From positions 1-64,000 of the forward strand of contig NZ_ABXA01000044.1 in the NCBI RefSeq assembly GCF_000173355.1: a stretch of 64,000 nucleotides of DNA, read 5' to 3'. This DNA comes from Anaerococcus hydrogenalis DSM 7454 (lineage in GTDB: Bacteria > Bacillota > Clostridia > Tissierellales > Peptoniphilaceae). Made by a program: the position numbers and the translations under genes. Positions 6,069 through 64,000 of the stretch are shown piece by piece; positions within the stretch are counted from its first letter, which is position 1; each line of letters begins with the position of its first letter. The notes beneath the pieces are model-generated. The model was not told the origin of the DNA and made no database searches. It saw nothing but the letters and a program-made list of their open reading frames with translations.

Positions 6069-6635
6069 ATTTGGAAATATACCAAACAAAGACAAGATAA
6101 ATTATTACCTGATAGAATCTAACCAAAATTTAGGTCCCTGGGTTTCTAGGTTAAAATTAATAGGAAAAAGTGCAAAAATGATAGGAAAAGAATTAAAGCT
6201 CGATCCTGACATAGCCTATGCTTGTGGTTCACTTTTTGAAATAGGCAAAAAAGAAAATAAAAAAGACCTAGCCCAAGTAATGACTGGCTTTAATATTTTA
6301 AGAAATGAATCATATTTTTTTCCAGCAAGAATAGCAATCACCAGTAAATTTATAATAAAAGATATAAAAACTTTTGATGAAAATTTTAATATAGAAAAAA
6401 AAGACCAAAAAAAACTAGAAAATCTTTTAAAAAGCTACCAATATAATGACTACGACAAATTAATTCAATTATTAGATAAGTCGATTTTAGAAAATTATGT
6501 TGGGATAGACAATTATTACAAAGATAAAAAAGAAGAAAAAATAAAGAAATAAAAATATTAAAGGATTACCAAAAATATTTTGAAGAAAAATTAAAAAATC
6601 CAATTAAATATTACGTAGATAGAAACATCCGATAA
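6055..6635 (+). pseudogene. HD-domain-like protein lacking the metal ligands, frameshifted near its end
   Basis: About 190 residues. The fold pattern matches HD-type phosphohydrolases (a GPWV helix, then LDPDIAYACG, then a Y-FPARI block), but each place where metal-binding His/Asp normally stand differs: GPWVSRL, SLFEIGK, QVMTGF and ITSKF. It is therefore probably not a hydrolase. At A6 (6536-6541) the frame ends early with IKK; one more A extends it through DYQKYFEEKLKN to a stop at 6635. The start at ATG 6055 lies inside the thioesterase gene. The assignment is by eye from motif spacing; the function is unknown. Confidence 0.5.
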
Positions 6636-6752
6636 TTAACCGGGTGTTTTTTTATGAATATGATTTCATAAACAGAATAACTTATTACAAATACAAAAAA
6701 ACCCATAGTAATGTCTTAATATAAACCTTGATTATTTTTAAACAAATATAGG

Positions 6753-6781
6753 TTGACAATAAAATAATAATAGTGTAAACT
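6753..6781 (+). promoter_or_regulatory. Promoter of the tryptophanase operon
   Basis: A consensus TTGACA (6753-6758), a 17-base spacer and TAAACT (6776-6781) predict transcription from about base 6788, giving a leader of about 200 bases before tnaA. Confidence 0.75.
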
Positions 6782-6810
6782 ATTTCATAGATAATTCTAG
6801 AATATCAGAG

Positions 6811-6953
6811 TGCTGACCGCTCATCAACTTTTATTTTCGATAAGCGAGATTTTTTAATCGTTCGCTAGTCTACAATTATTTTGATAACCGGGGTTCTCAA
6901 TTTGGATACTGTCCGCTAGTTAATTTTTCGAAGTTAATAACCGGGGTTCTCTG
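6811..6953 (+). promoter_or_regulatory. Structured tnaA leader with three related hairpin units
   Basis: Three units share a CGCT...(AT)AA-CG hairpin: unit 1 about 6811-6857, unit 2 about 6858-6900, unit 3 about 6908-6953. Units 2 and 3 both end AACCGGGGTTCTC and keep the same internal mismatches in their stems. Unit 1 ends GCGAGATTTTTTA, so its hairpin plus T run could act as a terminator. They lie inside the predicted 5' untranslated RNA. I see no T-box sequence, no Trp-rich leader peptide and no known riboswitch consensus. The likely role is control of tnaA by attenuation or protein binding (inference). Confidence 0.55.
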
Positions 6954-6991
6954 TACACTTTAACTAAACTTAATTATATGGAGGCAATATT

Positions 6992-8635
6992 ATGAAAAAG
7001 TACCAATTGGATGTACCTACACCACATTCTTATACCTATGTCACAAAAAACGTTCCAAATGTAACAGTAGAACAAAGAGAAAGAGCTTTAAAAGCTACTC
7101 ATTATAATGAATTTGCATTCCCTGCAGGCATGCTTACAATTGACATGCTTTCAGATTCAGGAACAACAGCAATGACAGACGTTCAATGGTCTGCTATGTT
7201 TTTGGGAGATGAATCTTACGGTAGAAATAAGGGATATTATGTTCTTTTAGATACATTTAGAGATGTTTTTGAAAGAGGAAATGATCAAAAAAGAATAATT
7301 GATCTTGTTAGAACTGATTGTGAAGACGTTGAAAAAATGATGGATGAAGTTTATCTTTGTGAATATGAAGGCGGATTATTTAATGGTGGATCTGCTCAAA
7401 TGGAAAGACCAAATACTTTCATTATTCAACAAGGACGTGCTGCTGAATCAGTATTATTTGAACTTGTTAGAAATATTTTAAATGAACGTGAACCAGGAAA
7501 AACTTATACAATTCCATCAAACGGACACTTTGATACAACTGAAGGAAACATTAAACAAATGGGTTCAATTCCTAGAAACCTTTATAACAAAGAATTGCTT
7601 TGGGAAGTTCCAGAGGGTGGTAAATACGAAAAAAATCCATTCAAAGGAAATATGGACACAGAAAAACTTGAAGAATTGATTACAAAACTTGGAGCTGAAA
7701 ATGTTCCATTAATCTATACAACAATTACAAACAATACAGTTTGTGGTCAACCAGTATCAATGGCAAATATGAGAGAATGTTCAAGAATAGCTCACAAATA
7801 CGATATACCATACATGTTTGACGCAGCTAGATGGGCAGAAAATGCTTACTTCATTAAAGTAAATGAAGAAGGTTATGAAGATAAGTCAATAAATGAAATT
7901 GCTAAAGAAATGTTCTCATATTGCGATGGTTTCACAGCTTCACTTAAAAAAGATGGACACGCAAATATGGGTGGAGTTTTAGCTTTCAGAGATAAGGGAT
8001 TATTCTGGAAAAAATTCTCAGACTTTAACGAAGATGGATCATTAAAAACTGACGTAGGTATCCTACTTAAAGTTAAACAAATCTCATGCTACGGTAATGA
8101 TTCTTACGGTGGAATGAGTGGTAGAGATATCATGGCACTTGCAGCAGGACTTTATGAAGCTTCAAAATTTGAATACTTAGATGCTCGTACAAAACAATGT
8201 GAATATCTAGCACAAGGATTCTATAAAGCAGGAGTAAAGGGTGTTGTACTTCCAGCTGGTGGACATGGTGTTTATATAAATATGGATGAATTCTTTGATA
8301 ACAAGAGAGCTCCAGAAACATTTGCAGGTCAAGGATTCTCAGTTGAACTTATAAGAAGATACGGAATAAGAACAGCTGAACTTGGAAACTATTCAATGGA
8401 ATACGACCTAAAAACACCTGAACAACAAAAAGAAGTAGCTAACGTAGTAAGATTTGCAGTAAACAGAAGCCAATTAAGCAAAGAGCATATGGATTATGTA
8501 ATTGCAGCTGTAAAAGCTTTATACGAAGACAGGGCTTCAATTCCAAATATTAAGATTGTTAAAGGTCATAATCTACCAATGCGTCACTTCCACGCATTCT
8601 TAGAGCCATATGAACCATCAGAAGACGAAAAATAA
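6992..8635 (+). CDS. tnaA: Tryptophanase (L-tryptophan indole-lyase), long form
   Basis: A PLP-dependent beta-eliminating lyase that splits tryptophan into indole, pyruvate and ammonia. The cofactor lysine lies in SLKKDGHANMGG (K319/K320), and FDAARWAENAYFI holds the Asp/Arg pair that binds PLP and substrate. At 547 residues it is longer than the roughly 470 of the E. coli enzyme; most of the excess is an insert around residues 88-140 (DTFRDVFERGNDQKRIIDLV and following). Tyrosine phenol-lyase has the same fold, but the adjacent NSS transporter favours tryptophan. ATG 6992 follows GGAGG. It is the first gene of a two-gene operon behind a structured leader. Confidence 0.88.
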   Translation: MKKYQLDVPTPHSYTYVTKNVPNVTVEQRERALKATHYNEFAFPAGMLTIDMLSDSGTTAMTDVQWSAMFLGDESYGRNKGYYVLLDTFRDVFERGNDQKRIIDLVRTDCEDVEKMMDEVYLCEYEGGLFNGGSAQMERPNTFIIQQGRAAESVLFELVRNILNEREPGKTYTIPSNGHFDTTEGNIKQMGSIPRNLYNKELLWEVPEGGKYEKNPFKGNMDTEKLEELITKLGAENVPLIYTTITNNTVCGQPVSMANMRECSRIAHKYDIPYMFDAARWAENAYFIKVNEEGYEDKSINEIAKEMFSYCDGFTASLKKDGHANMGGVLAFRDKGLFWKKFSDFNEDGSLKTDVGILLKVKQISCYGNDSYGGMSGRDIMALAAGLYEASKFEYLDARTKQCEYLAQGFYKAGVKGVVLPAGGHGVYINMDEFFDNKRAPETFAGQGFSVELIRRYGIRTAELGNYSMEYDLKTPEQQKEVANVVRFAVNRSQLSKEHMDYVIAAVKALYEDRASIPNIKIVKGHNLPMRHFHAFLEPYEPSEDEK

Positions 8636-8700: not shown

Positions 8701-10035
8701 ATGGACAATCAAATATCAAACAGAGATGGATTTAAGTCTAAGTGGGGATTTATACTAGCATGTATAGGATCTGCAGTGGGAATGGGAAATATTTGGAGAT
8801 TTCCAATTCTAGTTTCTCAATATGGTGGAATGACTTTTTTGATACCATATTTTATTTTTGTAGTATTAATTGCTAAAACTGGTGTAATAGCAGAAATGGC
8901 CTTGGGACGTTCTACAGAATCTGGAACAGTTAGGGCCTTTGGAAAGTGTACTGAGCTTAAATATGGCAAAAAAAGTATAGGTGAAAGTCTAGGAATAATA
9001 CCTGTTGGAGGATCATTAGCTTTGGCTATTGGTTATACTTGTGTTATGGCTTGGATATTTAAATATACTTTTATGGCTTTCACAGGTAGCTTAACTGCTA
9101 TGGAGCAAGATATGGACATAATTGGAAAAACCTTTTCCGATACTGCCATGGGGGCTCATTTTTGGATAGTCATTGCTATAGTAGTAAGTTTTACTATAAT
9201 GATACTTGGAGTATCCAATGGTATTGAAAAATCTAACAAAATTATGATGCCAGCCTTATTTGTTTTATTTATAGGACTTGCAATATATATTTACACAATA
9301 CCAGGATCATCAAAAGGTTATGAATATATTTTTACAGTCGATAAAGAACTTATAAAAAATCCTAAGGTTTGGATTTATGCTTTTGGACAAGCTTTCTTCT
9401 CCTTATCAGTAGCAGGATCTGGAACAGTAATTTATGGATCATACTTATCCAAAAAAGAAAATTTGATAAATTCAGCAAAAAATGTAGCTGTATTTGATAC
9501 AATAGCAGCTTTAATGGCAGCTTTTGTAATAATTCCGGCTATGGCGACATCTAATGCAGCACTTGATACTGGTGGCCCAGGACTTATGTTTATTCATTTA
9601 GTGCATGTAATGAATGGTATGCCAGGTGGTAGAATAGTTTCTATTATATTTTATGTTTGTATATTATTTGCAGGAATTAGTTCAATTATAAATTTATATG
9701 AATCATCAGTAGCCTACTTACAAGAAAAATTTAATTTTTCAAGAAAAAAATCAACTCTAATAATCCACGTCTTTGGATGTGTAGTTGCTATGCTAATCCA
9801 ACCTATAGTTTCAGAATGGATGGATGTAATTTCTATTTACATTTGCCCACTTGGAGCAGCTTTGGCAGCAATCATGTTTATTTGGGTTGCAGGTAAAGAA
9901 TTTGCATTAAAAGCTGTTAATGAAGGATCAGATAAGCCTGTAGGTAATTGGTTCTATCCTCTTACAAAATATGTTTATGTGGGAGCAGCTTTACTAGCCT
10001 TAATAGCTGGAGCAATATTAGGTGGAATTGGCTGA
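8701..10035 (+). CDS. tnaT: Sodium-dependent tryptophan transporter, NSS family (TnaT-like)
   Basis: A 444-residue neurotransmitter:sodium symporter family protein with about 11 membrane spans. The TM1 unwound region GSAVGMGNIWRFP, which coordinates sodium and substrate, is intact. Bacterial members carry amino acids. TnaT of Symbiobacterium imports tryptophan and is encoded beside tryptophanase, as here. It starts 65 bases after tnaA behind AAAGAGG and ends at a strong terminator. Import plus cleavage would supply pyruvate and ammonia and release indole. Tryptophan specificity is inferred from the neighbour. Confidence 0.85.
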   Translation: MDNQISNRDGFKSKWGFILACIGSAVGMGNIWRFPILVSQYGGMTFLIPYFIFVVLIAKTGVIAEMALGRSTESGTVRAFGKCTELKYGKKSIGESLGIIPVGGSLALAIGYTCVMAWIFKYTFMAFTGSLTAMEQDMDIIGKTFSDTAMGAHFWIVIAIVVSFTIMILGVSNGIEKSNKIMMPALFVLFIGLAIYIYTIPGSSKGYEYIFTVDKELIKNPKVWIYAFGQAFFSLSVAGSGTVIYGSYLSKKENLINSAKNVAVFDTIAALMAAFVIIPAMATSNAALDTGGPGLMFIHLVHVMNGMPGGRIVSIIFYVCILFAGISSIINLYESSVAYLQEKFNFSRKKSTLIIHVFGCVVAMLIQPIVSEWMDVISIYICPLGAALAAIMFIWVAGKEFALKAVNEGSDKPVGNWFYPLTKYVYVGAALLALIAGAILGGIG

Positions 10036-62758: not shown

Positions 62759-63012
62759 TAGTTAAGAAAAGTGTTGAAGAGAAGAGTAGCTATTTTAATA
62801 CTTAAAGCGAATCCCGTAGAGTGTGAGGGGATAAGTTAAGAGATAGTGAAAAGAACCTTAGAGCTTATGGGTCGATACAAGGAGACCTATACGGGAACTC
62901 CCGTTACAGAGTTAGAGTATGTTAGTACTTGATGAGGTTTATTTTGTGAAAAATAGACAAATACGGGTGGTATCGCGAGTCTTCGTCCCTTTTGGGATGA
63001 AGGCTTTTTTAA
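62759..63012 (+). promoter_or_regulatory. T-box riboswitch with arginine (AGA) specifier, upstream of argG
   Basis: The leader has the Stem I marks AAGAGTAG and AAAGCGA, then GTGAAA-AGA-ACCTTAGAGC. Aligned with the glyQS T-box layout (GAAA, specifier, A), the specifier codon is AGA (62852-62854), arginine. The T-box GGGTGGTATCGCG lies at 62965-62977, and the terminator stem GTCTTCGTCCC/GGGATGAAGGC with a T run ends near 63012. Uncharged tRNA-Arg should allow read-through into argG. Confidence 0.92.
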
Positions 63013-63062: not shown

Positions 63063-64000
63063 ATGATTAATAATGAATATGAAATTTTAAATCAAGCAAA
63101 AAAAGTAGTATTGGCTTATTCAGGAGGTCTAGATACATCTGTAATGGTAACTTGGCTAAAAGAAAATGGAGCAAAAGAAGTTATTTGTGTATCAGTAGAT
63201 TTAGGACAGGTAAAAAATCCTGAGGCCTTGGAGAAAAAAGCTCTTAAATCTGGAGCTAGCAAATTTTATAATGTAAATGTTGAAGATGAATTTATAGAAG
63301 ACTATGCCTTCAAAACTTTAAAGGCTGGAGCTAAGTACGAAAATGTATACCTATTAGGAACAGCCATAGCCCGTCCTTTAATTGCCAAAGTTTTGGTTGA
63401 TGTGGCAGAAAAAGAAAAGGCAGATTTGATAGTTCATGGTTGTACAGGAAAAGGAAATGATCAAATACGTTTCGAACTTTCAATAATGACTATAAATCCT
63501 CAAATAAATGTTCTTGCCCCATGGAGATTTTGGGATATAAAGGGACGTAGCCAAGAAGAAAAATATGCAAAAGACCATGGCATAGAGCTTAAAGTAACAA
63601 AAGATGAAGACTATTCAATGGATGAAAATATTTGGCACCTTTCCCACGAAGGCTTGGACTTAGAAAACCCAGAAAATCCTGCAAACTTAGAAAAAATCCT
63701 ATATTGGGTTACACCAGCTGAAAAAGCTGTGGATGAGGCAGAAATTGTAGAAATAGAATTTGAAAAAGGAAAACCTATAGCCCTAAATGGGGAAAAATTA
63801 AAGGGATCTTCACTTGTAAAAAAATTAAATAAAATTGGAGGAAAACACGGAATAGGTGTAGATGATATGGTAGAAAGCAGGATGGTCGGAATGAAATCAA
63901 GAGGAGTATACGAAAATCCAGCTGCAAGTATCCTTTACTTTGCCCACGAAAAATTAGAATCCGTAACAATTCACCCAGATGCCTTCCAATATAAGCAAAA
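63063..64000 (+). CDS. argG: Argininosuccinate synthase (3' partial)
   Basis: 312 residues are visible before the window ends. The ATP loop is VVLAYSGGLDTSVMV, followed by CVSVDLGQ, LLGTAIARPLIAKVLV, GCTGKGNDQIRFE and APWRFW, with citrulline/aspartate contacts in ESRMVGMKSRGVYENP. It joins citrulline and aspartate, the next-to-last step to arginine, under control of an arginine T-box. AGGAGG lies upstream of ATG 63063. It lacks about 90 C-terminal residues. Confidence 0.96.
   Translation, partial: MINNEYEILNQAKKVVLAYSGGLDTSVMVTWLKENGAKEVICVSVDLGQVKNPEALEKKALKSGASKFYNVNVEDEFIEDYAFKTLKAGAKYENVYLLGTAIARPLIAKVLVDVAEKEKADLIVHGCTGKGNDQIRFELSIMTINPQINVLAPWRFWDIKGRSQEEKYAKDHGIELKVTKDEDYSMDENIWHLSHEGLDLENPENPANLEKILYWVTPAEKAVDEAEIVEIEFEKGKPIALNGEKLKGSSLVKKLNKIGGKHGIGVDDMVESRMVGMKSRGVYENPAASILYFAHEKLESVTIHPDAFQYKQ

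Follow-up and report, generated by a model that had tools for sequence, protein, structure and literature searches.

A conserved structured RNA in the tryptophanase leader of Anaerococcus hydrogenalis and other Firmicutes, a candidate ligand-sensing switch of translation

How is tryptophanase synthesis controlled in Anaerococcus hydrogenalis DSM 7454, whose tnaA gene is preceded by a leader with repeated hairpin units? In the window (the whole stretch of 64,000 nucleotides analysed here) tnaA occupies positions 6992-8635 of the + strand and was identified by profile and structure matches. It encodes a tryptophanase of the long type (547 aa), which scores 613 bits against the model NF009709 (cut-off 285) and matches the solved tryptophanase 8sl7 over residues 2-543 with 1030 bits, while falling short of the thresholds that the equivalog models of tryptophanase and of tyrosine phenol-lyase set. 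Its active site reads FDTT; the Asp of this motif we take to mark tryptophanases, and Thr at the same place (FTTT) tyrosine phenol-lyases. The gene is 99% identical to its ortholog in the relative G024. Directly 3' of tnaA, on the same strand, lies a gene (8701-10035, +) for a sodium-dependent amino-acid transporter of the NSS/SNF family (closest solved structure 4us3), which is probably co-transcribed with tnaA.

The putative promoter (6753-6781, +) consists of a -35 box TTGACA (6753-6758), a 17-nt spacer and a -10 box TAAACT (6776-6781), and matches the consensus at 10 of 12 positions; promoter-like sites number six, against 3.8 expected, in the 601-base stretch around the leader. The same arrangement is visible in four relatives (L003, L004, L007, and L012). 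Transcription is expected to start near 6788, and about 200 nt separate the promoter from the tnaA start at 6992, the Shine-Dalgarno sequence GGAGG being located at 6980-6984 (+). A cre-like sequence (6773-6788, +) overlaps the -10 box in the window and likewise in L004, L007, and L012 (Anaerococcus, Peptoniphilus); its form ATGTAAACTATTTCA in L004 and L007 differs by one mismatch from the CcpA consensus, and the window copy by one more, so that catabolite repression of tnaA is possible. Near the predicted 5' end of the RNA, an imperfect inverted repeat GATAATTCTAGAATATC was noticed by reading (6790-6806, +), which is longer in L014 and L015 (CATAGATAA..TTATCTATG); the minimum free energy (MFE) fold of the leader pairs its bases with others than their repeat partners.

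A first-pass annotation, made from the sequence of the window, had proposed three related hairpin units in this leader. Related units are indeed there, although they number two: the covariance model R1, built from 19 units, matches positions 6802-6903 (E 4.5e-9) and 6898-6956 (E 3.4e-16), and what had been regarded as units 1 and 2 turned out to be the flanks of the first of these matches. The tail AACCGGGGTTCTC, noted as common to units 2 and 3, is real and represents the 3' half of both units as now defined. The distal unit A (6808-6898, +) is composed of P1 (GAGUGC/GUUCUC), a UG bulge, the core ACCGCUC .. AACCGGGG and P2, in which AUCAA (6823-6827) pairs with UUGAU (6881-6885) around a long insert. 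According to the MFE structure, this insert carries an extra hairpin (6839-6870, +), whose loop and last two stem bases are formed by a T-run (6850-6855); in L004, L014, and L015, hairpins were found by reading at the matching place. The proximal unit B (6904-6951, +) has P1 GGAUAC/GUUCUC, the core UGUCCGCUA .. AACCGGGG and P2 GUUAA/UUAAU. On the whole genome at E 0.05, R1 finds units A and B and nothing else. A second model, R2, recovers unit B from the 64-kb window (E 1.1e-12) and misses unit A, probably because its filters lose the unit with the long insert. The folding energy of the leader, whole or in pieces, is no better than that of shuffled sequences (for the whole leader z 0.18, with 109 of 200 shuffles folding at least as well), and the support for the element is therefore comparative, not energetic.

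Comparison of the relatives gives a common plan: a stem P1 (with UAC/GUA at its inner end in most units), a UG bulge, a core that hardly changes (CUGWCCGCYM ... RACCGGGGU) and a stem P2 that covaries. The UG bulge is followed by one base (U, A, or G) and then by CCG opposite CGG; the internal loop of the core has CYM on one side and RAC facing it, and beyond it stands P2, whose loop or insert differs greatly in length between units. Applied to a MAFFT alignment, RNAalifold predicts the core stem and P2 de novo, P1 not being predicted. Covariation was assessed on an alignment (A2) of 74 units, 70 of them distinct, which includes the loci L111 and L137 and leaves out nine loci that carry the core pattern elsewhere than before tnaA. 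In P1 and P2 taken together, 118 alignment cells are changed on both sides, against 48.2 ± 7.0 after shuffling (0 of 500 shuffles as high) and 22-40 in controls with slid partners, with the qualification that the shuffle statistics ignore relatedness and that A2 was fitted to the structure. When counted as pairs with any both-side change, the result is no better than in shuffles (8 against 7.1, 168 of 500 as high), and the same is true of another count of pairs changed on both sides (6 against 5.2, 199 of 500 as high). The compensating differences that had been advanced in favour of an RNA structure are borne out once relatives are compared. P1 is weak, 19% of its cells being non-standard pairs, with strong examples in L087, L098 (Murdochiella) and L144 (an Oscillospiraceae MAG). 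The pairs of the core stem hardly vary, so covariation says nothing about them, and the invariance of the core in A2 is partly due to construction, as most rows were picked by the core pattern; the evidence free of such selection comes from the comparison of orthologs that started from tnaA and from the R1 searches. Columns 21 (before P2) and 108 (opposite) co-vary as well (A-G 48, C-A 13, A-A 8, U-G 1; mutual information 0.41, a level reached by none of 2000 shuffles, which give 0.02), a pattern that would suit a non-canonical pair.

The first-pass annotation had stated that a lack of conservation in front of tnaA in relatives would refute its idea, and such conservation is observed: among 36 close tnaA orthologs of the family, 26 are preceded by the element (14 in tandem, 12 as a single unit) and 10 are not, and several other families of Firmicutes carry it too, including Enterococcus. 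R1 matches 27 of the 130 genomes of the family, and 26 of these matches are the tnaA leaders; the 27th (G040, E 0.019) was rejected, being without the core. In the wider draws R1 matched 32 of 249 genomes of the order, 12 of 391 of the class and 5 of 398 of the phylum, which added G179 and G185 (order), G272 and G523 (class) and G993 (phylum), all before tnaA; the R2 search added G955, also before tnaA. The remaining additional R1 matches are weak, G189 and G239 (E 0.007-0.008) among them. Weak matches were rejected on inspection, either because the 3' core is absent or no unit is formed (L064, L070, L074, L082, L084, and L085), because the locus has no CCGGGG (L071, L075, L076, and L078), or because CCGGGG is present and the 5' core absent (L077). 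The carriers include Peptoniphilus asaccharolyticus, P. indolicus, [Clostridium] citroniae and Enterococcus alishanensis. In most genera the unit is single; the tandem form is found in Anaerococcus and many Peptoniphilus. A tandem element before tnaA was also observed outside this clade, in an Oscillibacter MAG (L090, 1679-1819, -), which suggests a second origin of the tandem form. No similar leader was found in the plasmid collection. In the class-wide sample, the element stands at 5 of 55 tested genes of the tnaA family, two further partial matches lying outside that count; it is one control of tnaA among others.

The specificity for tnaA is most evident from a species-wide scan with the strict core, in which 84,980 species were represented by one genome each. 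It returned 66 loci, and in 56 of them a frame of the tnaA family follows, as established by direct protein match; L111, whose own contig ends, is counted as the 57th, since it is a near-copy of L104. Nine loci lack tnaA (L086, L102, L103, L118, L124, L131, L136, L138, and L142) and fit chance, the expectation for the core pattern being about 22 matches in 257 billion bases (a hand estimate at even composition). All three inner P2 pairs are formed in one of these nine and in 47 of the 57 tnaA loci; the R2 scores of the nine (15.6-30.3 bits) are inflated, as R2 scores the very core by which they were selected. In each of the 14 genomes searched again with R2 the element is present as one copy or one tandem pair, or with one copy for each tnaA paralog. 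One Pseudoflavonifractor genome (L153, L092) has two tnaA paralogs (577 and 463 aa), both preceded by a separate copy of the element, and the divergent gene beside the former looks, by reading, like a YheO-type regulator. In [Clostridium] aminophilum (L104), a spacer of 80 nt separates the element from tnaA, and a possible long-range stem ends at the Shine-Dalgarno sequence. What precedes tnaA is a conserved, structured, aptamer-like domain in the predicted 5' UTR of a metabolically coherent set of genes.

The element also follows the tree of tnaA. In a tree of 93 proteins of the tryptophanase family (60 with the element and 33 without it), four state changes suffice against 27.3 for shuffled states, in a quick search with some long branches and a sample enriched for carriers; proteins shorter than 250 aa, L111 and the nine loci without tnaA were omitted. 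The active site reads FDTT in all 60 proteins linked to the element, and FTTT occurs in three of the 33 unlinked ones.

Is this RNA among those already described? The leader of the window matches none of the 4227 families of Rfam 15 at gathering score, the T-box and the glycine riboswitch included; a permissive search there yields four implausible sub-threshold chance matches (best E 0.13, URE2_IRES). The element has no family among 11 loci searched at gathering score (six of them with the element), and at four loci searched to E 1 (three with the element) the single match is a T-box in L202, a locus without the element. The tnaA leader holds a real, tnaA-specific structured RNA that is absent from Rfam 15. 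The T-box of L202 (161-428, -; 83 bits, just under the gathering score) belongs to the class-wide sample and stands directly before a gene of the tnaA family, which is odd for a catabolic enzyme; by eye, its specifier may be UAC (Tyr). Another T-box leader (62765-62993, +; 110.7 bits) lies in the window, is unrelated to tnaA and is followed by a frame at 63063 that, by reading, looks like argininosuccinate synthase (argG).

Nor do the known systems of amino-acid control resemble it closely. The T-box (RF00230) is a leader RNA of amino-acid genes in Firmicutes; the tnaA element, in contrast, is only about 50 nt long and has a different core. TRAP targets consist of about 9-11 clustered (G/U)AG triplets spaced by 2-3 nt, and such clusters are absent from 6788-6991, where reading finds seven scattered GAG/UAG. 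In E. coli, the tnaCAB operon with its tryptophanase is controlled by tryptophan through the leader peptide TnaC, whereas the element described here is a structured RNA without a conserved leader ORF. The first-pass view of a cis-acting RNA tied to tryptophan use, perhaps one that binds a ligand and distinct from T-box, TnaC and TRAP, agrees with these comparisons. A parallel is the glycine riboswitch, in which two similar tandem units precede a catabolic operon, presumably for induction by the substrate. The tnaA leader of the window likewise has similar tandem units before a catabolic gene; however, its core and fold are different, most genera have a single unit, and the proposed control acts at the Shine-Dalgarno sequence instead of a terminator. 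L-tryptophan aptamers were reportedly selected in vitro by Majerfeld and Yarus in 2005 and by Majerfeld et al. in 2010; they are said to bind tryptophan in a small internal loop and to contain a CYA element. The tnaA core is likewise an internal loop, and its CYM facing RAC provides a lead towards that CYA, the aptamer being artificial and the tnaA element natural. Artificial riboswitches derived from tryptophan aptamers expose the ribosome-binding site upon addition of tryptophan, according to excerpts of the source (PMC12566513). The candidate Firmicutes regulatory RNA trpB motif SRC-39-1, linked to tryptophan by its name, is described in the available part of its source as standing mostly before amino-acid ABC transporters and carrying an intrinsic terminator (PMC11109978); the tnaA element is set apart by this partial description, as it precedes tnaA and its window copy has no terminator. 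The CC-licensed PMC literature yielded neither a natural tryptophan riboswitch nor a tryptophanase leader RNA of such a kind, and in the excerpts of it that state an origin, a "tryptophan riboswitch" is artificial or synthetic.

As to the way in which the element could act, the first-pass annotation had thought of attenuation; the sequence suggests instead that the access of ribosomes to the Shine-Dalgarno sequence is regulated. In the window, an anti-Shine-Dalgarno sequence (6948-6955, +) overlaps the 3' strand of P1 of unit B and is predicted to pair with 6977-6984; on paper this pairing and P1 are mutually exclusive. In the free ensemble of the leader, positions 6949-6952 are paired with the Shine-Dalgarno sequence at 0.94-0.95. 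In other leaders, tails at or after the 3' strand of P1, often GUAUCCUC, GUUCCUC or GUACCUCC, are also complementary to it. The switch tests covered 62 leaders and excluded L111, whose contig ends, and L137, whose reading frame is odd. The duplex of tail and Shine-Dalgarno sequence has a mean energy of -7.93 kcal/mol. Shuffling the tails weakens it to -4.82, and exchanging them between species to -7.30; none of 200 shuffles and none of 5000 exchanges gave so low a value. Their pairing exceeds 0.5 in the free ensembles of 40 loci; among the other 22, the Shine-Dalgarno sequence pairs at 0.3 or above with the 5' side of the unit in eight and with neither partner in 14. It is unpaired at 0.17 when the leader is free, at 0.36 when the unit is imposed and at 0.32 with shuffled tails, and the imposed unit opens it in 51 of the 62 loci, the gain being above 0.2 in 29 of them; in five loci it becomes less open by over 0.05. 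For the full leader of the window, the openness is 0.06 in the free state, 0.07 with A, 0.21 with B, 0.58 with both, and 0.87 with both and the full P1 of B; imposing unit B on a short segment leaves it unchanged (0.11 to 0.10), i.e., the opening appears only with the full leader. Relative to the free ensemble, closing the unit costs 3.4 kcal/mol on average, which is to be expected if a ligand must pay this cost and would be expected of a wrong structure as well. A tail of this kind is little developed or absent in L068, L069, L122, L143, and L148. In the first two of these, P2 amounts to three pairs closed by GAAA, and the Shine-Dalgarno sequence is 0.85 open when free and closes somewhat with the unit imposed, remaining mostly open in both states. 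L083 and L152 show another arrangement, in which the flank GGUAUUUG of the Shine-Dalgarno sequence is complementary to the 5' strand of P1, CAAAUACC, and not to the usual anti-Shine-Dalgarno sequence of the 3' strand; this is possibly a second form of the expression platform.

Taken together, we incline, by a modest degree, to the view that the element is a ligand-sensing leader RNA which turns the translation of tnaA on, its ligand most likely being L-tryptophan. When the ligand is scarce, the 3' strand of P1 and the bases following it (UCUCUGUA) would pair with the Shine-Dalgarno sequence (UAUGGAGG), and the ribosomes would be blocked. Once the ligand occupies the conserved internal loop of the core, the unit would close, P1 would reclaim its own 3' strand, and the freed Shine-Dalgarno sequence would allow synthesis of TnaA and probably of the transporter, too. 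Two units in tandem, as in Anaerococcus and many Peptoniphilus, could sharpen the response. In this scheme, we infer small-molecule binding, the nature of the ligand, the ON direction and cooperativity. Since tnaA is catabolic and an NSS transporter gene stands next to it, induction by the substrate tryptophan suggests itself, the ligand being named from gene context only.

Two other explanations of the same RNA deserve attention. The element could be the binding site of a protein that controls the translation of tnaA or the stability of its mRNA, which we consider unlikely, yet worth serious thought: a P2 stem-loop with a conserved internal-loop core would also suit an RNA-binding protein, and post-transcriptional regulation of E. 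coli tnaA by ribosomal protein L4 is reported (PMC7186457). A dedicated protein would have to accompany the tnaA copies across several families, Enterococcus included, but this objection does not apply to a universal protein such as L4. It is likewise improbable that a riboswitch-like RNA responds here to another ligand (indole, another aromatic compound, or a PLP-related or charge signal) or works as an OFF switch. The dependence of the ligand's identity on gene context leaves room for such an RNA, as do L068 and L069 with their open Shine-Dalgarno sequences and no visible anti-Shine-Dalgarno partner; on the other hand, 57 of the 66 core-pattern loci precede a tryptophanase, the other nine fitting chance, and a catabolic gene combined with an anti-Shine-Dalgarno sequence that overlaps P1 fits induction by the substrate.

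The remaining explanations have much less in their favour. Transcription attenuation with an intrinsic terminator, for which the T-run at 6850-6855 had been put forward, is very improbable, given that this run tops a hairpin within P2 of unit A, in a variable insert, and that the scan of the + strand found no terminator-like site in 6500-7100. A leader peptide with tryptophan-dependent stalling of the ribosome would be in line with the established control of E. coli tnaA; however, the stretch between the core halves varies from 10 to 32 nt in all frames (mod 3 = 0, 1, and 2 in 21, 26, and 15 cases), and, with the leader counted from 20 nt before the element, small ORFs of at least eight codons preceded by a Shine-Dalgarno sequence occur in only four of 62 leaders, one of them with a Trp codon, so we give this mechanism hardly any credence. 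We find it just as difficult to believe in a DNA operator, i.e., a palindromic protein-binding site in place of an RNA element. Short palindromes near the promoter and the cre-like sequence over the -10 box, both seen by reading, could be cited for it; the units, in contrast, lie downstream of the promoter and reach to the Shine-Dalgarno sequence, their pairing is kept by compensatory changes, and P2 tolerates inserts of very different length.

The full form of the preferred interpretation, a natural class of tryptophan riboswitches of about 50 nt that frees the Shine-Dalgarno sequence of tryptophanase genes and acts in tandem and cooperatively in Anaerococcus and Peptoniphilus, appears to us tentative, its chances being a little less than even. 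If it is true, an aromatic amino acid has a receptor made of RNA in nature, and a natural tryptophan site could be compared with those selected in vitro, which figure in discussions of how the genetic code arose. Small in size and present in culturable species, the element is linked to the gene responsible for producing indole, a gut signal; the indole output of many human-associated anaerobes would then be an RNA-sensed response to tryptophan.
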